A stretch of 13,656 nt of DNA, taken from the NCBI GenBank assembly GCA_002425885.1, contig DINC01000260.1, positions 1 to 13,656 of the forward strand. Direction: 5' to 3'. Source of the DNA: Spirochaetia bacterium UBA5550. GTDB taxonomy: Bacteria; Spirochaetota; UBA4802; UBA5550. Each line of letters opens with the position of its first letter. The stretch's first letter is position 1. Made by a program: the position numbers and the translations under genes. Shown in pieces: positions 1 to 13,593 of this stretch. A model generated the notes under the pieces. The model had not been told where the DNA came from. It saw only the letters and a program-made list of their open reading frames with translations, and did not search any database.

Positions 1-831
1 GAACCCACCCCATGCTGCCGGGCTTCTGTACCTGCTGTCATTCCGTGTCTTCTCCACTGCTGATGCGAATGAATCAACCAGTGTACTTCCGCTGTTTACT
101 GACCTGTAAAATTCCCCTGCAAAAACCCCCCTGTTCAGTTCATTTACAGGTGATGTGTTAATAACAGCAGCTTTAACTCCCGCACCCCTTGCATTAAGAA
201 TAAAATCAACAGGGCCCGCTCCATGATATTCGCTTATTGCAGCATAGAGAAAATCCGGTGTTCCTATGGCAGAAACAAATCCTTTACCATCCAGCAGATA
301 CCCCTTTTCAGGAGAACTGTATGAAATCTCACCTGTTATATGGGCAATACCGGCTGAGACTGAATCTGCATCCAAACTCTTAATTCCCGATTCACGCACA
401 GCCACCTTCTCAACATGGGGCTGAAATGCCTGGCCCGGTTTTCCGATAAAACGTACAGGTGATCCGAAATTCCCTTTAGATGATGAGTGCAGGAGAGGTG
501 ACGCGATGTAGCTTATCTTCACCTCTTCAGAGAGCATTTTTCCCTTACCGATAATTTCAAAGGGTATCTGTTCTGTGAATGAATCTGTTGAAAATACAAC
601 CTGCTTTCTGCTTTTAAAGTATGTCTCAAGGGGCTGAAAATACTCAGCAAGGTCTGATGATGCTTTCTTTATATCAGATTCCTTCAACGCTGAAAGCCTG
701 TATTTCGGAAGCAGCTCTGAAAGTGTTTTGTACCCGTTTTCTATCCAGAGGGCCTTCTTCATTTTGCTGTCAACAATCCAGATAAATATATCGTTTTTAA
801 CTTTTGATATATTGATATAGCCGCACCTTTC
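1..831 (-). other. Second, C-terminal CHAT-like domain of the giant lipoprotein, lacking the His-Cys dyad
   Basis: Residues about 2260-2536 are better conserved than the first copy. They show an ALPERCGYINI entry, DSFTEQIPFEII (2342-2353) for the family's 'DG-LH-LPFE', then EEVKISYIASPLL for 'erY-vsYaPSl'. IAHITGE (2421-2427) stands for 'LHLATHG' and FVSAIGT (2444-2450) for 'vLSACxT'. Further on are GAGVKAAVINTSPV for 'AGARsVvaSLWpV', FYRSVNSG, and PAAWGGF at the edge. Glu2427 (codon 328-330) sits where the catalytic His is expected and Ile2448 (codon 265-267) where the Cys is expected. There is no cysteine at all from residue 2337 to the window edge, so no alternative alignment can restore the dyad. 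Confidence 0.75.
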
Positions 832-3800
832 CGGCAGCGCCTGCTGAATTGCTGTTATGTCTATTGTGCCTGCTGATTTTACAAGGTTTACCCCTGTTAT
901 AGATGAAGTGATTAAGAGCTTTTTCATCTCATTGTAGAAGTGCGCATCTGAATGCTGTCCGGTTTTCATCTTGTAGTTGATGTATTCATCAAAGACGCTC
1001 ACTGTCATATCCCTGTATCCGTGTATGTTCAATATTCCCGGATTAAGCTTCAGTACAGCAAGTGATGAGGTGAAGAGCTTTTCAAATTCAGCTGCATCCT
1101 GTGATGTTGCTTTTTTAAGTGAGCGGAGCCTGTTAAGTTCCAGCATGGAGAGCTGAAGATCAAGAAGGTACTTCTCCTCTGTTTTGAGCGGGCTAATGTT
1201 TTTTACGATGGTACACCTGTTTTCAGCTTTTTTAAAATCCTCCCCCCTTATAAGAAGATTTGCGAGGAGGAGCTGAATTGCAGCATAGCCCCTGTCATCA
1301 GGACTGAACCTTTCGTCCGCAGCGGATGCTTCATTATAAGCTCCCCTGTAATCCCCTGATATCATAAGCTCCACAGCTATCCTGTACATCGATTCCCTGA
1401 TTACATGGAAAACAGATGAGTCGGATGAGACTTTTTTCATCATCTGAAGAATTTTTATTTTTTCAGCGTTTGTTCCGTTCTCAGGTATTGATGCATAGCA
1501 CTTCTGAAGCAGTGCTATTATTGCAGGTGTGTATGATGCCGGTGCAATCTTTTCAAGGTCGAGCCCGGTTATGTAGGAAACAGCATCCTCCTTAACTGCT
1601 CCCCCTGCCAGCACAACCAGCGGAGGGAAAGCGGAGAGCGAATCAAAATGATCGCCGGATTTTATAAGTTTCATGCTCTCATCAGCGGTTTTACTCCCTG
1701 AGTTCCCCAGGGCAGCGATACGGTCAACTCTCGGAGAGAACCCTGCATCCGGCTTATCCCCTGTTATTACAAAGTTCATCATCCTTTCATTCAGTGAGAG
1801 CTGCTTCATAGGTGTCAGTTTCATCACCCGTTCGCTCATCTCAGGGTTAAAAAGATAAATGTATTCAGCAGCAAGTACCAGGTATCTTTCAGCAGGTATC
1901 AGTGTGTTGTACGGTTTCGCTATTTTAAGGATTCTATCTGATGCAGAATCGCGGCCGTTCACTGCGTCGAAAATTGCATCAATAAATTCAAGGTCAGGGT
2001 ATTTCTCCATCCCCGCAATTTTTTTTCTTAAAACTACTGCTTCAGCAAAATCACCTTTATGCAGAAGAGTGTAGAGTTTTCTGAACAGCAGTGAAGCCCC
2101 TTCGTCGGGATTTGCCGGGTTATAGGATTCCAGCGCTTTAAGTGAAGAGGGGTAGTCCCCTTTAAGAAGATGAAGGAGCCATGCTGAAGTCATATATCTG
2201 AATTTCTCTTCAGGGGATACTGCTCTCCATCTTGCCAGGTGAACAGCAGCGCTGTCAAAGTCAGCTTTATTAACAGCTCCTGTGAAGAGAGCGAATTCAG
2301 ATGCCGCTGTTTTTTTATTGTCTGCGGGTTTTGCGTCAGATAGCGCGTTGATGTATCCGGATTTTATATGTGTTGAATTTCTGTTTCCGCTGCCGCTGTA
2401 CAGGGCTTTGATAATAGAGGATATGTTCCTGCTGTCACTGCTCAGTGAATAGATGATGCTCCCTGTTCCTGAATAGAGCGCAGCTTCAAGCATAAGGGAG
2501 AGGTGTGAAGCATCATCAGCAGTCCCTGCAAGAATTATGCAGTAAGGTGATATCCCTTTTTCAGAGAAGAGTTTATCCCTGCTTATAAGGCTTCCGTTAT
2601 CCGGTGAATCTACAATAACAGAATAGCCGGATAGGTGCATATCTTCTGATGGAGGCTCGACTTTCACATCAGCAGAGGGGCTTTCGATCCCTTTTACTGA
2701 AGAGATAATATCACCCGCAGGAAGGGCTCCCTTTGAAAAAATATCTGCCCTGTCCATAGTATTTATGAAGGAGAAGTTTCCGCTGATTTCCCCCCTGTGC
2801 CTGTTGACAAGCTTAAGGGATGTGTCATTCAGCAGGATAAATATTCCTCTCTTTGCTGAGCCTTCATTTATCATGGATGACAGAGCTTCTGCGGAATCAG
2901 CTTTCATGTACCCTGAAGTTATCCTTCCATCTGAAAGCTTCCATGAGTAGATCCCCTTTCCTGTTTCCATGAATGTGTATATGTCATGATCTGTTTTCAG
3001 CTTAACATCGCTCAGTTCAAGGTATGGGGCTATGGGTCTCTGTTTACTTTCAATTTCACGGAAGAGTTTAGCGAGTCTCTCCTCCTGTGCTTTCTCTTTT
3101 TTATTAAGTTCTTCCACTTCTGGAGACGCGGCAGCAGAGCCTGAAACAAGGAGTGCGGATCTCTTCTCCCGTATTTCACCTAATTTTGCGATCTCAGAGA
3201 GATAAGAGAAATAGGCGTTTCTGTGGTATTCATCGCCGAATACAGGGTTTATTGAGTTTACAGAGGTTATCCTTTCAACACGGTTAAGTCTCTCCTGTAA
3301 ATGGAACCCGCGATCACCTTTCCCTGTATTTACAAGAAATTCAGCGTACCTGTTGTATATCTTTCTGATCTTCCCTGCGCGCGGGGTATAGAGCAGCGGG
3401 TGTTCCTCAATACGGGATACTGCTGCTGACATATATCTTTCAGCAAGCACTCTGTAGTCACCGCTCTCAACCTCTCTTCCGTAATCAGCAAGAAATGAAC
3501 CCAGTGCGAAATCCGCATTTATCCCTGTCCACCCGAACCTGTTCTGCCCGGATATGTTTCTTGCATCTATGAGCGCAACGTATGCTCTTTCATATTCGCT
3601 GATCTTTTCATAACAGTGCGCCGCGTTCACAAGGAGTTTAACTTTAAGTTCCCTGTTCCCCTGTTTATCCGCAGCAGATATTGCTCCCTCGAACATTCTA
3701 AGGGCTTCAGCGTAGAGATTATATATATCCCTGTTGTGCGTATAGAGATTATATGACGGGTCCTGATTTTTTGAAATGACAGCTGCGGAGTATAGAAGCT

Positions 3801-6800
3801 CAGCCCTGTAGAATTTCATCATTGCGATAGATATATCAAGGGAGTAATAGATCTCAGATGTCTGTTTTTCTATGTCGCTTCTTAATTTTTTTATCTGTTC
3901 AGGAGTAACTTCAGTTTTCTTTGCCTCTGCTGCTGCTTCGAGGGCCTCTTTCCCCTGGGTGAAACGCATGTCGAAATAGTTGTTTCTGTATTTCTCAATT
4001 TTAGCGAGAAATTTTTCAGTTTCAGATATCCAGTTGCGGCCTTCGTTCTTCCCTTCATCGATCATAAGTGCATAAAGGTTCGCAAGATTCATCATTGAGG
4101 AGAATATCCCCTGGAGGTTGTTTTTTTCTGACGCAAGTTCACCTGCTTCGTTGAATCTCTTTTCAGCTTCAGCAATGCTGCCTGACCTGAAGTAGTAGTA
4201 ACCGAGGTTGTTCAGAGATCTGATCCGGGTTTCATAAGCTACGGATGTTTTGTTTTCCTCAAGGAGAGATATCTTCTTTTTCAGGTATTCTATTGCACCT
4301 GCATAGTTGCTGTTCTTCACTGCGAGTTCTTCAAGCATCGAAATGCTGAGGAGTTTTTTGTTCCACCTGTCCAGCGGGTAGAATATCTTGTTGTCTCCGA
4401 TAACTGCGGTGTCAGGCCCCATGTTGAAAACAGGGAATGGGCCTATGCCGAAGAGTTTTATGCGGAGGTAGTATTTTTTTGTGTCATCAGGGTAATCCCG
4501 CAGGAGCCGGTCAGCTGTATCTATGTATGATTTGGCTGTATCGTAGTCTCCAAGTTCCTTGCAGCAGAAGGCGATCTCCTGCATGTACCGGGCTTTATCA
4601 ATTTCGATTTTATTTTCTTCGGCATGTTTAATAATCTTTTTGTACCAGTTAATGGCCTCAGTGAATTTCTCCTCGTATCTGCTGAAAAGGGCAAAATACC
4701 TGTAAAGGGCAAGTATCTGTTTTCTGTATTTAGCAGATGAACCTGCTGCAAGTGTGCTGTATATGCCGTAGGCCCTGGTTATCTCTTCACGCGCTTCTTT
4801 AACTTCACCATTCTGCCACAGGGTGTAACCTGTATGAAAATGGAAAAGAGCCTTCTCTATGTCAGAGCTGAAGGTTTTTTTGAATTTACGCGCTGTGCTG
4901 TAATGGTTCAGAGCTCTCGGATAATTGACCAGGAGGAAGTATGTGTTACCCATGTTAATATGGATATTCCCCTCGTTTTCCGGATAGAGCTTTTCGTTGT
5001 TTGCATTCAGCGCTTTATCGAGTAATGGTATATTTTTTTCCCAGAGTCTCTTGGGGAAGTAGCCGCCGATTGCAGATTCAATATCCTCTCCGTACTCCTT
5101 TCTCTGAAGATCGATGAAAAGATATATCCAGCTTTTCAGCAGGTATGGTTCAATAAATGTATCGTCAAGGAATAGAGCCCATTCGATCTGCTTATCAGCG
5201 AGGTAGAGATTTTCGAATACTTTATCTCTGGAAAAAGTTGAGATCAGAGCCTGTGCATCGGAGTCGATGAGCATTGCTTTCTTTGTGTAGATGTAGGCAA
5301 GGCCGTAGAGAGCTGCACGGTTAAAGTCCATCCTCAGTACAGGGAGTTTCGAGTTGTAACTCTTCTCAAGTTCATTAATCCCCTCTTCACCCTTCCATCC
5401 TGTGTAAGCGTCTATGTAAAGTACATGGGCACGGGGAGCGTATTCAGTATAGATTTCCGGGTAGATCCGTTTGTTGTGCATAAGTGTAATGAGATTGATA
5501 TACTTGTCATAAATCTGCGATGCAGCGGCAAAGTCCCCTTTTGATGAGCTTCTTTCACCCGCCTGTTCGTAATAATTTATAATCCATAAAAGTTTATCAC
5601 GGAAGTTTTCTGTTTTAAATCTCCGTGAATAGCGGTTCACACCTGCGCTGTAATATTTTTCTGCTTCGGCATTTCTGCCGGACCGTCTCTCCATCTCCGC
5701 GAGCCTGATATTGGCTGCGTAGTATGTCAGGTCATTGGGGTGCGAGAGTTTTATCGATTCTTCCAGATCATTTTTTGCAGTGTCAGTTTTCCCTGCGCTG
5801 TCACTGATGATTCCGGAAGCCAGGGTCAGTATTGCCATGATTTTTTTATCTGCGGAAAATTTCTTTTTCAGATTTCCTATGTTGCGAAGAGCTTCAGATG
5901 CATCTGCGGATGAAAATCTGATTTTCTCAAGCGGATTAATAAGATTTGAGGTAACAGAAATTTTCTGGTTCGTGTTCCCTTTATTTATAATTGTAACAGC
6001 TGCATCTGAAAGTGTTCCTTTGCGGAGGTCATCACTGATTATTGAAAATTTAGTCAGAACATCAGTCCCTCTTTCAAAATCAGGAAATTTTTTCAGCAGG
6101 TCTTTGTAGAGTGCTGCAGCTTCATTCTTTTTTCCTGAAAGCAGGGTCAGATCACCAAGATCCTCAATGGCGAATGGAGCGAAATACCTGTTGTTTTTAT
6201 CTTCACTCATTTTCAGGATAAGAGCATCAGCCTGAGATCTCCGGTTCTCAATGAGGTCAATGAGAAATGCGGCATAGAGGTCATTACCTGCGGCCTTCTT
6301 TTTAAGGAGAGCAGTGGCGGAAGATCCCTCTGCGCTGTTTTTTACTGACTGGTGGTAAAGCGCAGCCTCCTTCAGAGATCTGTTAACATATGCGCGGGAT
6401 GAACTGTCACCGGCTTTCCCGTAAAAGTTGTAAACAGAACCAAGCGCCATGACATATCTCTCTTCATCGTCATATTCAGAGATATATGTTTCACAGAGTT
6501 CATACTGAAGTTTTGCATTAAGTTTTTTCGGAATTATCCCCAGTTCAGGGATGATGTTGAGGTTTATATTCTCACCGGTTATGTCAGTATAGATAATTAC
6601 ACCATTGTAATCCCTTGTATTCAATACCGGGAGCCATTTTGCCTTGAATGATGTATCCGATTTTTTTGTAAGCGGATAACTTAGTTTCTCTTTCAGATCG
6701 TATAGCCTTATGACAGATCTGTCCTGAAGATCAAGTTCCCCGTTGCCATTAGTATCATTTTCGATGGAGGAGTATATTATTTTATCGCTCCCTCCGCTGT

Positions 6801-7608
6801 ATGACGGGTAGAGTTTGATTGAATCACCTGTTGTGAGCCGTTCAGATTTACCTGATGCAATTTCCACAGAATAGATGTCGCCGTAAATATTATCGCTGTA
6901 TGAAGTATATACAATCTTCTTTCCGTCAGGGGAGAATGCAGGGTAAAATCCGTCTTTTGGCGAAATTTTTCTTTTCGAGCTTCCGTCTCTCTCCATAAGC
7001 CAGATGCTGCCGCTTCCATCTTTAGATGATGAGAAAGCGAGAAGTTTTCCATCCGGGCTCCAGCATGGATTTGAATCTTTTATGTTGATGATAACACCTG
7101 TGTCAGGATTTTTCTCAGCAGTAATGTTTACAGCTGTGTTGTCAAGTGGGGGGATCTCCTCACCGGATGAGGCCCTCTTCAGCAGTTCCTCAGGCTTTAA
7201 TTTAATAATAAAAATATCACCTTCCGGGTCGTCTCTGAAAGAGACAAAGGTCACTCTCCTGCCGTCCGGGGATATAACAGGGCTTGTATCCTTTGAAGGG
7301 TGAGCAGTGAGGCGTACTGTTGTGATATCACCCATGAGCCTCAGGTATATGTCGAAATTTCCTCCGTCCATATTTGAAGAGTAAAAGAAGTAGTTACCGT
7401 CAGCGGAAATGTCCCCGTCAGTTTCAATGGACTGGCTTATTGTGACAGGAATAACACGGCCCACATTGAACCTGTACTCCTTGTCAATAATGCCGCGATA
7501 ACTGAATTGTACATCAGCAGTTTTTTTATCATCGCATGAGATGATAACCGCAGCCTGCAAAAGTATTGAGAGAGGTAATATATATTTTAAGAGAATCTTC
7601 ATGTTCAT
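1..7608 (-). CDS. Giant lipoprotein with PD40 propeller, TPR arrays and two degenerate CHAT domains (3' end outside window)
   Basis: One frame stays open from ATG at 7608 to base 1: 2536 codons with no stop. The N-terminus is a lipoprotein signal (hydrophobic residues 4-24, lipobox IIS-C, Cys25, then Asp-Asp). PD40/TolB-like propeller repeats follow, with S-x-D-G motifs at residues 68-71, 113-116, 184-187 and 226-229. Residues about 370-1450 are TPR-like helix pairs (clear ones near 470-500, 880-950, 1010-1040, 1130-1160, 1325-1350). A charged coiled coil spans about 1475-1522. A CHAT-like domain lies at about 1528-1750, a second helical array at 1757-2250, and a second CHAT-like domain from 2260 to the edge. 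The sequence stops at a P-A-A-W-G-G-F motif that normally sits near the CHAT C-terminus, so only a few residues are probably missing. The start at 7608 is preferred over ATG at 7602 because AGGA (7619-7622) is 10 nt upstream. The gene begins 2 nt after the DUF1318 stop, so it is probably translationally coupled. Cellular role unknown; a periplasm-facing or surface scaffold is inferred. Confidence 0.85.
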   Translation of the reverse strand, partial: MNMKILLKYILPLSILLQAAVIISCDDKKTADVQFSYRGIIDKEYRFNVGRVIPVTISQSIETDGDISADGNYFFYSSNMDGGNFDIYLRLMGDITTVRLTAHPSKDTSPVISPDGRRVTFVSFRDDPEGDIFIIKLKPEELLKRASSGEEIPPLDNTAVNITAEKNPDTGVIINIKDSNPCWSPDGKLLAFSSSKDGSGSIWLMERDGSSKRKISPKDGFYPAFSPDGKKIVYTSYSDNIYGDIYSVEIASGKSERLTTGDSIKLYPSYSGGSDKIIYSSIENDTNGNGELDLQDRSVIRLYDLKEKLSYPLTKKSDTSFKAKWLPVLNTRDYNGVIIYTDITGENINLNIIPELGIIPKKLNAKLQYELCETYISEYDDEERYVMALGSVYNFYGKAGDSSSRAYVNRSLKEAALYHQSVKNSAEGSSATALLKKKAAGNDLYAAFLIDLIENRRSQADALILKMSEDKNNRYFAPFAIEDLGDLTLLSGKKNEAAALYKDLLKKFPDFERGTDVLTKFSIISDDLRKGTLSDAAVTIINKGNTNQKISVTSNLINPLEKIRFSSADASEALRNIGNLKKKFSADKKIMAILTLASGIISDSAGKTDTAKNDLEESIKLSHPNDLTYYAANIRLAEMERRSGRNAEAEKYYSAGVNRYSRRFKTENFRDKLLWIINYYEQAGERSSSKGDFAAASQIYDKYINLITLMHNKRIYPEIYTEYAPRAHVLYIDAYTGWKGEEGINELEKSYNSKLPVLRMDFNRAALYGLAYIYTKKAMLIDSDAQALISTFSRDKVFENLYLADKQIEWALFLDDTFIEPYLLKSWIYLFIDLQRKEYGEDIESAIGGYFPKRLWEKNIPLLDKALNANNEKLYPENEGNIHINMGNTYFLLVNYPRALNHYSTARKFKKTFSSDIEKALFHFHTGYTLWQNGEVKEAREEITRAYGIYSTLAAGSSAKYRKQILALYRYFALFSRYEEKFTEAINWYKKIIKHAEENKIEIDKARYMQEIAFCCKELGDYDTAKSYIDTADRLLRDYPDDTKKYYLRIKLFGIGPFPVFNMGPDTAVIGDNKIFYPLDRWNKKLLSISMLEELAVKNSNYAGAIEYLKKKISLLEENKTSVAYETRIRSLNNLGYYYFRSGSIAEAEKRFNEAGELASEKNNLQGIFSSMMNLANLYALMIDEGKNEGRNWISETEKFLAKIEKYRNNYFDMRFTQGKEALEAAAEAKKTEVTPEQIKKLRSDIEKQTSEIYYSLDISIAMMKFYRAELLYSAAVISKNQDPSYNLYTHNRDIYNLYAEALRMFEGAISAADKQGNRELKVKLLVNAAHCYEKISEYERAYVALIDARNISGQNRFGWTGINADFALGSFLADYGREVESGDYRVLAERYMSAAVSRIEEHPLLYTPRAGKIRKIYNRYAEFLVNTGKGDRGFHLQERLNRVERITSVNSINPVFGDEYHRNAYFSYLSEIAKLGEIREKRSALLVSGSAAASPEVEELNKKEKAQEERLAKLFREIESKQRPIAPYLELSDVKLKTDHDIYTFMETGKGIYSWKLSDGRITSGYMKADSAEALSSMINEGSAKRGIFILLNDTSLKLVNRHRGEISGNFSFINTMDRADIFSKGALPAGDIISSVKGIESPSADVKVEPPSEDMHLSGYSVIVDSPDNGSLISRDKLFSEKGISPYCIILAGTADDASHLSLMLEAALYSGTGSIIYSLSSDSRNISSIIKALYSGSGNRNSTHIKSGYINALSDAKPADNKKTAASEFALFTGAVNKADFDSAAVHLARWRAVSPEEKFRYMTSAWLLHLLKGDYPSSLKALESYNPANPDEGASLLFRKLYTLLHKGDFAEAVVLRKKIAGMEKYPDLEFIDAIFDAVNGRDSASDRILKIAKPYNTLIPAERYLVLAAEYIYLFNPEMSERVMKLTPMKQLSLNERMMNFVITGDKPDAGFSPRVDRIAALGNSGSKTADESMKLIKSGDHFDSLSAFPPLVVLAGGAVKEDAVSYITGLDLEKIAPASYTPAIIALLQKCYASIPENGTNAEKIKILQMMKKVSSDSSVFHVIRESMYRIAVELMISGDYRGAYNEASAADERFSPDDRGYAAIQLLLANLLIRGEDFKKAENRCTIVKNISPLKTEEKYLLDLQLSMLELNRLRSLKKATSQDAAEFEKLFTSSLAVLKLNPGILNIHGYRDMTVSVFDEYINYKMKTGQHSDAHFYNEMKKLLITSSITGVNLVKSAGTIDITAIQQALPERCGYINISKVKNDIFIWIVDSKMKKALWIENGYKTLSELLPKYRLSALKESDIKKASSDLAEYFQPLETYFKSRKQVVFSTDSFTEQIPFEIIGKGKMLSEEVKISYIASPLLHSSSKGNFGSPVRFIGKPGQAFQPHVEKVAVRESGIKSLDADSVSAGIAHITGEISYSSPEKGYLLDGKGFVSAIGTPDFLYAAISEYHGAGPVDFILNARGAGVKAAVINTSPVNELNRGVFAGEFYRSVNSGSTLVDSFASAVEKTRNDSRYRSPAAWGGF
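2359..3027 (-). other. First CHAT-like domain of the giant lipoprotein, lacking the His-Cys dyad
   Basis: Residues about 1528-1750 follow the usual CHAT build. They are preceded by an E-R-x-x-R-V-E-R helix (near 1450) and a Lys/Glu-rich coiled coil, as in canonical TPR-CHAT proteins. Then come an opening strand pair (IYTFMETGKGIYSW), a strand-turn like 'PDG-LH-LPFE' (FILLNDTSLKLVN, 1590-1601), a MHLSGYS segment (1657-1663) at the place of 'LHLATHG', and YCIILAGT (1689-1696) at the place of 'vvLSAC'. At the catalytic His position there is Tyr1662, and at the catalytic Cys position Thr1696. Cys1690 lies six residues too early. The following EAALYSGTGSIIYSL matches 'RAFLxAGARSVVxSLW'. The assignment is by eye from motif order and spacing; no profile search was possible. 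Confidence 0.55.
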
Positions 7609-7610
7609 AA

Positions 7611-8204
7611 CTATTTTTTCCTGGTCCACTTGCCTGAATTGTCCTGAACCCAGTCACCCTTCTGCGCAAGGGCCCTCTGCTCTTCTGAAAATATTTTTCC
7701 GAATGAATCTATTTCGTTTTTTGAAGGTTCCTTCCCCCCGCTTTTTGCAAGGGTCTTCACGAATATCTCTCTGCGGGCTTTATTCTCTTCATCAATAACT
7801 GTGAGAAGAACTTTTTTCAGCTCCGGTGATGATTCGTATTGCGAGGCCTCAATATATGACACATATCCCGCTGCGGTTTCCCCTATTGCACCTTCAGTTT
7901 TATACTCCCTGATTTTGCCTGCGTGGAACTCACGCACTTTAATAGATTTGATGATCTCCGGGTCCCCGCTCCCCTGGGCTCCCCCTTCAGTTTTACCAAC
8001 AGTTGTGCGGATAGAAGAGACTGTCCATGCGTCCTTCTCCAGTTCCATGTAATCACCGACAATCTGTCTTTCAATAACAGTCTTCTCACCTGTGAGGTTG
8101 ATCTCAGGGGGAACAACAGTAAGGCAGCTTGGTGTGGATTTACACCCGGAGAGAGAATGGCACACCAGGGTCATTATAATTGCAGCGAATAGATTTTTTT
8201 TCAT
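7611..8204 (-). CDS. DUF1318 / YdbL-like lipoprotein
   Basis: A 197-residue protein with a textbook lipoprotein signal: MKKN, a hydrophobic stretch, and lipobox LSG-C with Cys21. The C-terminal half (about 95-197) matches the YdbL/DUF1318 family in motif order. It has T-E-G-x-I-G-E-T-x-x-G-Y (103-114), an E-E-N-x-x-R-R-E helix (139-146), and the closing G-D-W-V-Q-D-N-S-G-K-W-T-R-K (183-196), equivalent to 'PGEYVQGINGKWVRK' of E. coli YdbL. Residues 32-66 form an extra N-terminal block (PPEINLTGEKTVIERQIVG, then acidic) not present in E. coli YdbL. In E. coli, YdbL is a periplasmic partner of the AsmA-like YdbH and the small lipoprotein YnbE. GGAGG at 8214-8218, inside the last codons of the upstream gene, lies 9 nt before the ATG, and the stop-to-start gap is 1 nt, so the two are almost certainly co-translated. 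Family assignment is from memory of the motifs. Confidence 0.8.
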   Translation of the reverse strand: MKKNLFAAIIMTLVCHSLSGCKSTPSCLTVVPPEINLTGEKTVIERQIVGDYMELEKDAWTVSSIRTTVGKTEGGAQGSGDPEIIKSIKVREFHAGKIREYKTEGAIGETAAGYVSYIEASQYESSPELKKVLLTVIDEENKARREIFVKTLAKSGGKEPSKNEIDSFGKIFSEEQRALAQKGDWVQDNSGKWTRKK

Positions 8205-11335: not shown

Positions 11336-13270
11336 TCAGAAATAAAAATTAACTTTTCCGCTGAACTCATGCCATTTAAAAGAGTAATCTTTATTATATG
11401 AATAGTCAGCAAGAACTGAAACGGAATTTGCAATTTTAATTCTTTCTGAAAGGCCTGCTGACCATCTTGTATGTTTCTCTCCGAATTCAGCGTGATAAGC
11501 TGAAGCATAGATATGGTTTTTCCACGGGCCTAAGATTGTAAGTATTCCGGCTTCACCGCCGCCGAGAATGTCGCTGTTATTTTCATAATCGGGATTAAAG
11601 TATGATTTAACTCCTGCAAAAAAATATATCTGAACTTTCTTAGCAAGAAGTGTGCTTAAACCTGCATTACCTTTCAAATGGAAAGCTAATGTCTCTTTTT
11701 CACCTTCACTTATATTCTGTATCAGCCCTGTGTTCAGTACATAACAGGGATTTATAAAGAATGAGTCTGACGGAGGAAGGGAGACCAGATCAACAATATC
11801 AAGCCTCTGAAGCACAAAACGTTTATCATCATAATAATAGCGGCCCTGGATATTGCCGAAAACAATCTGGGAGTTCATGTTGTATCCGTCATCAGGGTCC
11901 ATAATTTCATGACATGACTGTCTGTAAGCGAGCTGTGAATAAACTCCTTCAAGAGAATGGCCTGTTTCAACGGCGATTCTGCGGGATTTGTGAGACTCAT
12001 CAGGGGCCACAGGTTCAGGGATATCTTTTATCGGGTCATATTTACCCATGGAATTCCGTTTTGTCAATACAGCCATAAACCTGGTTCTATAATCCTCTTG
12101 CGAGATATCTTTTTTAACAGCCATGAATTTAAGATAATCTGTGGCGAGATCACACATTATTATCTTTTTCTCTTCGTCTCCGGTGAGCGAGTCTATGCCT
12201 GACAACTCATGCTCCCCTCTGCAGTAATCGAGAACAAAACTCTGTTCTTTTTTATCCAGCTTTGATCTGAAGAACTGAATTTTTGAATATAATGAAGGCC
12301 TGAAGACTCTTCTGCTGACTATCTTTTTATCCCGGGCAGCACGGAGTGTATCAACAGGCTCAACGCCCCACCAGAAGTAATCGGTGATCTCTGTCTCCGG
12401 TTTTGCAGCCTCTATGAGGAATAATAAACTATAAGAGCAGTTTTCATCAATAAAGAAGTAATCGGAGTATATATTCTCCATCTCCACCACATGACGAACC
12501 ATTCTCTCCTTTTCTTCAGGAGTCATGGAGATTTCATATTCCCAGAGGTCTCTCTGTTCTGTGTCGCTGTATTCACGTATCTTCTGGTAATAGGGGAGAA
12601 ATGAATAGTAGCCTTTGTATAGCCCCAGGAGCCCCTTGTAAACAAATAGCGGGAGCAGCGCATCGTCAGTGGCAGCGGCATAATTCAGGGATTTAGCGAG
12701 AAGTCTGCTCCCTTTTTCTGTCTCCACAAGAAGAAGCGTGTGCCCGTACATTGAAGCAGGGTTATTCATAAAACCTGCGGGGAACACAAGTGTTACGGTT
12801 GATGGATTGATCTCTTTGTAAAACTGACTGAACCATATATCACCGTCATGCGGCAGTTTTGCAGTGTCAATATTCAGTTTATCTTTCAGCCACCCGTATC
12901 TTGCGGAGAATTTTTCAGTGGGATGCATCATAACATTTTCTTTTGGCCTGAAAAAACTCCTTATAGTTTCATCAAGTTCAGCTTCAGGGCTATGTTTACC
13001 TTTTTTTGCGAAGAAAAAAGCCGGATCATCAACCTGGCTGGTGAAACCGCCGGTAAAATTTTTTTTATAATGAAGAATAATATGCCAGTATGGATCATCC
13101 GCAAGTTTCAGTTCTTTTGCTTTTGCAATGAGTTCAGAAATATACCTGTTGGTATCCTCTTCGGACACAGGGGAATCTTCTCCGTATGAAATTCCATGGA
13201 GGAAGATTAATAAAACAAGTACGGCCTGGAAGCCGTACTTGACATTTTTTTTGAAATGTTTAAAGATCAC
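11336..13270 (-). CDS. DUF4105 (Lnb N-terminal periplasmic domain) protein with C-terminal beta-barrel-like region
   Basis: A 644-residue protein starting at GTG. The N-terminus is a Sec signal peptide (basic 4-11, hydrophobic 15-24, probable cut after Gly30). The central region carries the DUF4105 signatures: N-N-P-A-S-M-Y-G-H-T (169-178), L-N-Y-A-A (195-199), the Gly/Tyr-rich Y-K-G-Y-Y-S-F-L-P-Y-Y block (218-228), R-D-L-W-E-Y-E (240-246) and D-E-N-C-S-Y (275-280). His177 before Cys278 recalls a permuted NlpC/P60-LRAT arrangement, so a thiol-hydrolase or acyltransferase activity is possible; this is inference. From about residue 440 the chain is rich in alternating aromatic strands and ends in V-N-F-Y-F, a terminal Phe as in outer-membrane beta-barrels. 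The GTG is chosen because it is the only start that keeps the signal peptide: the next Met is near residue 114. No Shine-Dalgarno is visible, and the upstream gene's stop is 2 nt away, so translation may depend on coupling. Confidence 0.75.
   Translation of the reverse strand: MIFKHFKKNVKYGFQAVLVLLIFLHGISYGEDSPVSEEDTNRYISELIAKAKELKLADDPYWHIILHYKKNFTGGFTSQVDDPAFFFAKKGKHSPEAELDETIRSFFRPKENVMMHPTEKFSARYGWLKDKLNIDTAKLPHDGDIWFSQFYKEINPSTVTLVFPAGFMNNPASMYGHTLLLVETEKGSRLLAKSLNYAAATDDALLPLFVYKGLLGLYKGYYSFLPYYQKIREYSDTEQRDLWEYEISMTPEEKERMVRHVVEMENIYSDYFFIDENCSYSLLFLIEAAKPETEITDYFWWGVEPVDTLRAARDKKIVSRRVFRPSLYSKIQFFRSKLDKKEQSFVLDYCRGEHELSGIDSLTGDEEKKIIMCDLATDYLKFMAVKKDISQEDYRTRFMAVLTKRNSMGKYDPIKDIPEPVAPDESHKSRRIAVETGHSLEGVYSQLAYRQSCHEIMDPDDGYNMNSQIVFGNIQGRYYYDDKRFVLQRLDIVDLVSLPPSDSFFINPCYVLNTGLIQNISEGEKETLAFHLKGNAGLSTLLAKKVQIYFFAGVKSYFNPDYENNSDILGGGEAGILTILGPWKNHIYASAYHAEFGEKHTRWSAGLSERIKIANSVSVLADYSYNKDYSFKWHEFSGKVNFYF
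13209..13241 (-). terminator. Intrinsic-terminator-like hairpin inside the DUF4105 signal-peptide codons
   Basis: A perfect 10-bp stem (CAAGTACGGC / GCCGTACTTG, 13216-13241) with a 6-nt loop is followed on the minus strand by TTTTATT. On the plus strand the stem is followed, after ACA, by a run of eight T, so it could act both ways. It begins 32 nt after the DUF3015 stop, where that gene's terminator is expected, but covers codons 10-19 of the DUF4105 gene. Confidence 0.7.
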
Positions 13271-13272
13271 TA

Positions 13273-13593
13273 TCAGCTGTTAACTTTATTAATGTTTGCA
13301 ACTACATCTTTTGATGTTACATCTTTTGATGTATAGATGTTGTTGAAATTTTTATGAAGTTTGTCTTTGAAAGCATCTTTATTTTCAACTTTCATAAGGT
13401 GAGCAAGAGTATCAACATATTCGCCATCACCTTTAGCTATGTCATTTGCAAGTGAATCCATGTTTTCAGCAACATATACATCAACGATGTTAACACCGAT
13501 TACTGCGCCTTCTTTATAGCCCAGAGTACCGGTTGTGATTGCGAATGTACCGTTACCGCAGATACCGTTAAGACATGTAGCAACAAGTTCCAT
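13273..13593 (-). CDS. DUF3015-family protein (5' end unresolved at window edge)
   Basis: From ATG at 13593 the frame gives 106 residues. Family motifs are clear: T-C-L-N-G-I-C-G-N-G-T-F-A-I-T-T-G-T (6-23), E-N-M-D-S-L-A-N-D-I-A-K-G-D-G-E (43-58), L-A-H-L-M (63-67), and the C-terminal N-F-x-x-I-Y-T-S-K-D-V (82-92). These proteins are usually secreted and begin with a signal peptide followed by a short G-C-G-x-G block. Here the frame upstream of the ATG still reads like the family (G-C-S-P-I-G-I-G-T-V-L-L) until an in-frame TAG at 13651-13653. The true start is therefore probably outside the window and the ATG may be internal, although AGGGG 6 nt before it could serve as a ribosome site. The gene may be broken or the edge sequence wrong. 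Function unknown. The stop lies 2 nt before the DUF4105 GTG, followed by a terminator-like hairpin. Confidence 0.65.
   Translation of the reverse strand: MELVATCLNGICGNGTFAITTGTLGYKEGAVIGVNIVDVYVAENMDSLANDIAKGDGEYVDTLAHLMKVENKDAFKDKLHKNFNNIYTSKDVTSKDVVANINKVNS
13304..13333. repeat. 15-bp tandem direct repeat encoding Thr-Ser-Lys-Asp-Val twice
   Basis: Two adjacent copies of a 15-bp unit (ACATCTTTTGATGTT and the same ending in A) give T-S-K-D-V-T-S-K-D-V near the C-terminus of the DUF3015 protein. The near identity at DNA level suggests a recent in-frame duplication or a slippage-prone site. Confidence 0.75.

Follow-up and report, generated by a model that had tools for sequence, protein, structure and literature searches.

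Does a protein that carries two domains of the CHAT fold still act as a protease when neither domain retains the His-Cys dyad and, if not, what could its role be? The question is raised by a 13,656-nucleotide stretch of Spirochaetia bacterium UBA5550 (hereafter the window), which is the whole of contig DINC01000260.1 (G000:C277) and in which a giant minus-strand frame encodes a predicted lipoprotein with a TolB-like PD40 propeller, a TPR array, a CHAT-fold domain (domain 1), a second helical stretch and a further CHAT-fold domain (domain 2). The dyad was found to be missing from both domains, in the window as well as in related spirochaetes, and the protein is probably a structural scaffold, not an enzyme.

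Counted from the ATG at position 7608, as are all residue numbers given here, the giant frame comprises 2536 codons (2543 from the GTG start) and runs off the contig without a stop codon; the assembled genome is 83.6% complete. An initial annotation, whose region at positions 1-3027 corresponds to residues 1528-2536 only, had described this frame as intact, which holds as far as the contig end but not beyond it. It did not mention the open 3' end, the lipoprotein signal, the propeller, the retained AsmA-like/DUF1318 neighbourhood or the relatives without one or both CHAT domains. The relative in genome G002 (93% identical) has 2555 amino acids, hence approximately 12 C-terminal residues are missing from the window frame. 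Named relatives were labelled Spirochaetota or Spirochaetia. A simple pattern recognised a lipobox-like Cys in 64 of 70 family proteins, which came from a search limited to the 7982 candidates with the most shared words; proteins shorter than about 1395 amino acids could not appear in it. The propeller also matched part of the NCBIfam TolB model (TIGR02800), below its cut-off.

Fold of the two C-terminal domains

The models of both domains superposed on the caspase-like fold of CHAT proteins and separase, which bears out the annotation of two CHAT-fold domains, each behind helices. Residues 2130-2536 alone passed the cut-off of Pfam CHAT (PF12770; 27.6 bits against 24, profile positions 219-284 of 289), the full-length protein gave a weak C-terminal match below it (21.3 bits), and 15 of the 20 members of the domain 2 alignment, including the window, were matched at E ≤ 1. 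Domain 1 did not reach the cut-off: the window yielded no CHAT match at E ≤ 1, and none appeared among 24 domain 1 sequences (25 of the 27 matching families inspected). Comparison of the domain profiles with the sequences of solved structures gave nothing significant, the best E-values being 0.082 and 0.1 and that of the CHAT protein 8tl0 being 0.39.

The two domains had been proposed to stem from an internal duplication, a proposal that we rejected. A profile-profile comparison of domain 1 with domain 2 gave a non-significant probability of 5.6% over 31 columns and, because Pfam CHAT was also absent from the 24 domain 1 sequences, the kinship between the domains is one of predicted fold alone.

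Loss of the catalytic dyad

Not one of 69 spirochaete rows had a His at the catalytic His site of domain 2 or a Cys at its Cys site (gaps in 2 and 8 rows, respectively), whereas all 18 homologues from other bacteria, which had not been selected for the dyad, carried both residues. The 69 rows, left from 77 by a 90% identity filter, include L053-L055 from outside the order of the source genome, for which homology to CHAT in this region is uncertain; the 18 are those of P0067-P0085 long enough to align (P0074 was too short). P0065 and P0066, likewise from outside the order, were left out before counting. An earlier alignment gave the dyad in 0 of 68 spirochaete rows versus 14 of 14 others. Three of the 69 rows had a His no more than two positions from the His site, and one had a Cys no more than three from the Cys site. 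Judged from these alignments, the loss of the dyad exceeds chance, and since the orthologues also lack it, neither a local loss nor a sequencing error can account for it.

In the window protein itself, Glu had been placed at the His site of domain 2 and Ile at the Cys site, with no Cys over about 200 residues. The Glu is indeed E2427, and the last Cys of the protein is C2262, leaving residues 2263-2536 free of Cys. The alignment assigns the Cys site to S2459, in a column that loop gaps leave uncertain by one, such that the annotated Ile (I2458) lies one position off and neither residue is a Cys. For domain 1, a Tyr and a Thr had been named; the Thr fits (T1696), the Tyr does not, as the putative equivalent loop, placed by strand order in the models, reads SPDNG, and there is no His in either case. 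Across 74 domain 1 rows, a His occurred around the His site in two and a Cys around the Cys site in two; C1690, in the strand preceding the Cys site, is Cys in 4 of 24 rows. The 20 loci outside the order gave 18 proteins once two open-ended ones were set aside; in a search of their C-terminal 450 residues together with the window, Pfam CHAT was recognised in the window only (1 of 19), which leaves no dyad count for these proteins.

Selection and conservation

The ratio of nonsynonymous to synonymous substitution rates (dN/dS) between the window and G002, a single species pair, was 0.089 over the whole giant gene, with values of 0.079 in the first TPR array, 0.070 in the second helical part, and 0.137 and 0.097 in domains 1 and 2, respectively. 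Within the 69 rows, the CHAT positions W2277, Y2501, P2530 and W2533 were retained in 62-64, position 2490 was Asp in 61 (Glu in the window), and the clade-specific residues D2342, P2349, E2351 and N2492 were fixed in 64-69. These ratios and fixed positions agree with the annotated view of the domains as conserved pseudo-enzymes and not freshly decayed ones.

Divergence from G002 was uneven along the gene. Over the propeller and the beginning of the TPR array (window 7656-5257, compared with L033), DNA identity was mostly 93-99%, with one 200-base block of 73.5% inside this region (6456-6257), and other blocks were mostly 80-93% identical; the synonymous rate was 0.086 in the propeller versus 0.45-0.54 in the remaining parts of the gene. 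This pattern looks like recombination or mosaic assembly. An apparent frame of 11,060 residues in G011 was almost wholly N and was discarded.

Operon context and co-occurrence

On the minus strand, the giant frame is preceded by genes for a DUF3015 protein, an Lnb_N/DUF7840 protein, an AsmA-like protein and a DUF1318 protein, in that order. The AsmA-like and DUF1318 frames are 1 base pair apart, and the latter extends over the GTG start codon of the giant frame. The AsmA-like protein was assigned to the NCBIfam family LIC_11026, a name that comes from Leptospira.

When 46 genomes of the order were compared, with matches confined to the propeller disregarded, the same 36 had both DUF1318 and the giant core and the same 10 had neither; seven of these ten, G004 and six of one genus, are 90-99% complete. 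The AsmA-like gene followed the same pattern, save for one weak partial match in G004. The DUF1318 and giant genes lay on one contig and the same strand, less than 70 base pairs apart, in 35 of the 36; in the other (G044) both matches reach contig ends. Across 198 genomes of the phylum, DUF1318 was detected in 47 (E ≤ 0.001), all 47 of which had a giant match (E ≤ 1e-10), as did 48 of the 151 genomes without a DUF1318 match.

Outside the order, four of the 20 loci held AsmA-like, DUF1318 and giant genes together (L115, L117, L118 and L116, the last by the DUF1318 position from the phylum-wide search), DUF1318 was directly upstream in another four (L112, L114, L123 and L124), and the next upstream frame was AsmA-like in L119. 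Neither gene was seen in the remaining 11, with the contig starting just upstream in L111 and L122. Two giant PD40-TPR proteins, possibly paralogues, were encoded per genome in two instances (L113 and L114 of G072; L126 and G193:C186); in G072 the giant gene of L114 adjoins DUF1318 and that of L113 does not.

Features of the window

Table 1. Features of the giant lipoprotein gene and its operon partners in the window
Feature	Coordinates	Strand	Remarks
Giant PD40-TPR-pseudoCHAT1-helical-pseudoCHAT2 lipoprotein	1..7629	-	GTG start, 2543 codons; truncated at the 3' end by the contig boundary
Lipobox IISC	7534..7545	-	Lipidated Cys25
TolB-like PD40 beta propeller, residues 31-360	6529..7518	-	Pfam PD40, 79.8 bits, 4 stretches
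First TPR array, residues ~400-1460	3229..6411	-	Pfam TPR_12, TPR_2; ends approximate
CHAT-fold domain 1, residues 1535-1760	2329..3006	-	
Domain 1 loop SPDNG, S1668-G1672	2593..2607	-	Putative His-site equivalent, by model strand order
Domain 1 G1695-T1696	2521..2526	-	Putative Cys-site equivalent, by model strand order
Second helical/TPR stretch, residues ~1775-2250	859..2286	-	Pfam TPR_19 at 2081-2131; model helices from 2130 on
CHAT-fold domain 2, residues 2255-2536	1..846	-	
H2423, other conserved CHAT His	340..342	-	Four residues before E2427; kept in 61/69 rows
E2427, catalytic His site of domain 2	328..330	-	By alignment
I2458-S2459, catalytic Cys site of domain 2	232..237	-	By alignment
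DUF1318/YdbL-family protein, 197 amino acids	7611..8204	-	Pfam 49.4 bits, cut-off 27; lipobox LSGC (by eye)
AsmA-like protein, 981 amino acids	8206..11151	-	NF047499 (LIC_11026 family), 344.4 bits, cut-off 325

Upstream of the operon lie the Lnb_N/DUF7840/DUF7843 gene (11336-13270) and the DUF3015 gene (13273-13593). When 33 loci were compared, several of which stop short upstream, the former was found in G002 and G003 only and the latter in G002 only; the DUF3015 frame extends further in G002, and the window copy may be truncated by the contig end.

Proposed role of the giant lipoprotein

The architecture, the predicted fold, the dyad loss, the selection and the operon are shown by the analysis, and two domains without the dyad, encoded in a long-standing operon beside a member of a lipid-transport family, argue that the giant protein is probably a scaffold rather than an enzyme. 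We favour, with a probability of roughly 0.55, a giant envelope lipoprotein of Spirochaetota that serves, with its pseudo-CHAT modules, as a periplasmic scaffold for its AsmA-like and DUF1318 operon partners. The propeller and TPR array would form the conserved core, and both C-terminal domains would have lost the dyad before the order radiated. We infer that the lipid anchor holds the protein at the membrane facing the periplasm, where the propeller and TPRs may bind partners, physically including the AsmA-like protein, and the pseudo-CHAT domains may enlarge the binding surface as non-catalytic interaction modules. The operon would then be a likely inter-membrane lipid-transfer system, the retained neighbours pointing to an AsmA-type bridge. 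More tentatively, by analogy with Escherichia coli, the giant lipoprotein could be the outer-membrane-side partner of such a bridge in Spirochaetota, taking the place of YnbE, with a caspase fold co-opted as part of an envelope scaffold.

Several observations weigh against this scaffold role. Six of the 70 family proteins are shorter than 1600 amino acids and, by length and ends, lack both CHAT domains, nine have 1782-1807 amino acids, the length of the core plus domain 1, and both CHAT domains are missing from the proteins of G001 (of the window's genus, 1452 amino acids, operon in place) and G003 (1429 amino acids). The CHAT modules are therefore dispensable and not needed for the role of the core. 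A further family protein of 1885 amino acids lacks the N-terminus, and one of 2027 has an ambiguous layout. The residue at +2 after the lipobox Cys is Asp, which under the E. coli rule would lead to inner-membrane retention. The window AsmA-like protein fell below the Pfam AsmA and DUF748 cut-offs, and two of the seven AsmA-like orthologues examined passed Pfam AsmA. Joint absence can reflect missing contigs, the genomes are related and their counts not independent, and some phylum-wide giant matches are propeller-only (for instance in G182 and G011, which have DUF1318, and in G030 and G057 of the 48 genomes without it). G053, finally, has DUF1318 and giant matches and no AsmA-like match.

Alternative explanations

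This absence from G053, together with the giant matches in 48 of the 151 genomes without DUF1318, also fits a neighbourhood that reflects co-transcription only, which we regard as a possible, if weaker, account. The giant and DUF1318 genes are nevertheless co-present even where they lie apart (G049, G053 and G056), and genus g34, five other members of which have weak DUF1318 matches, accounts for many of the 48, so that DUF1318 may be missed there. It seems unlikely that both CHAT domains are decaying, functionless relics of an ancestral PD40-TPR-CHAT protease. The missing dyad, a domain 1 below sequence recognition and the relatives without one or both domains fit such decay, as does G007 (L056, L057), where the C-terminal part is split over three successive frames and the AsmA-like gene over two, which may be assembly errors or decay. 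The dN/dS values of the domains, however, are similar to those of the AsmA-like (0.074) and DUF1318 (0.114) genes in the same species pair, 53 of the 70 family proteins exceed 2300 amino acids, and positions are fixed across the 69 rows.

Two further explanations are improbable to a similar degree. One domain might still be enzymatically active through a remodelled active site, built for instance around D2342, E2351 and N2492, which occur in 64-65 of the 69 rows and correspond to His, Ala and Ser as the commonest residues of the 18 dyad-bearing rows. The former sites nevertheless hold no conserved His or Cys column, H2423 is a non-catalytic His common to the dyad-bearing rows, and the Asp, Pro and Glu at 2342-2351 may simply represent the general CHAT core strand. 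In one study, a Ser variant of a TPR-CHAT protein was dead (PMC9729208). Alternatively, the protein might be a periplasmic stress sensor whose CHAT-like part signals, comparable to a possible signalling role of the CHAT-like fold in the anti-sigma factor DdvA; against this, the operon groups it with a DUF1318 lipoprotein and an AsmA-like protein, and no Pfam anti-sigma domain was found in the window proteins, for which no transmembrane prediction was run.

Relationship to known systems

The best structural match of the domain 2 model was Csx29, the TPR-CHAT protease of Craspase, which likewise has a TPR array followed by a CHAT fold. Csx29 has a single CHAT domain with a dyad and works with a CRISPR effector, whereas the giant protein has two dyad-less domains, a lipobox, a propeller and an envelope operon; its neighbours on the contig are DUF1318, AsmA-like, Lnb_N and DUF3015 genes, with no CRISPR Cas7-11 neighbourhood. 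The TPR-CHAT dyad is H585 and C627 in the protein of PMC9729208. Domain 1 best matched separase, also a helical array with a caspase-like domain, but an active eukaryotic protease. The bacterial membrane protein DdvA (PDB 8rot, 8rw5), a transmembrane anti-sigma factor unlike the giant protein, was similar in its CHAT-like C-terminal fold by structure match only; one paper names it an anti-sigma factor, in passages silent on its fold. The PD40-TPR-CHAT proteins P0067-P0085, some labelled Desulfobacterales or Magnetococcales, share the same kinds of Pfam domains and a C-terminal CHAT that aligns with domain 2, yet differ in having the dyad (18 of 18 aligned), and the similarity spans 4-18% of the query.

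The operon resembles E. coli YdbH-YnbE-YdbL in that AsmA-like and DUF1318/YdbL genes adjoin in one locus. It differs in that no gene of YnbE size lies between them and the giant lipoprotein follows; the window AsmA-like protein, assigned to LIC_11026, is not established as YdbH. An E. coli mutant without TamB and YhdP grows on MacConkey agar given a ydbH-ynbE-ydbL plasmid (PMC8593681), and the outer-membrane lipoprotein YnbE is the working partner of YdbH (PMC12977461, PMC11784454). Titles and abstract openings in the literature gave no sign that this giant protein has been described.

Implications

CHAT domains have been studied mainly as cell-death and CRISPR-immunity proteases. If the proposed role is correct, two such domains in tandem, deeply conserved without the dyad and encoded in an envelope operon, would represent reuse of the CHAT fold as a structural part. 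Little is known of how the outer membrane is built in this phylum, and the giant protein is a candidate partner for its AsmA-like protein; the question of how AsmA-type bridges are held at the outer membrane in bacteria other than Proteobacteria thereby becomes testable.
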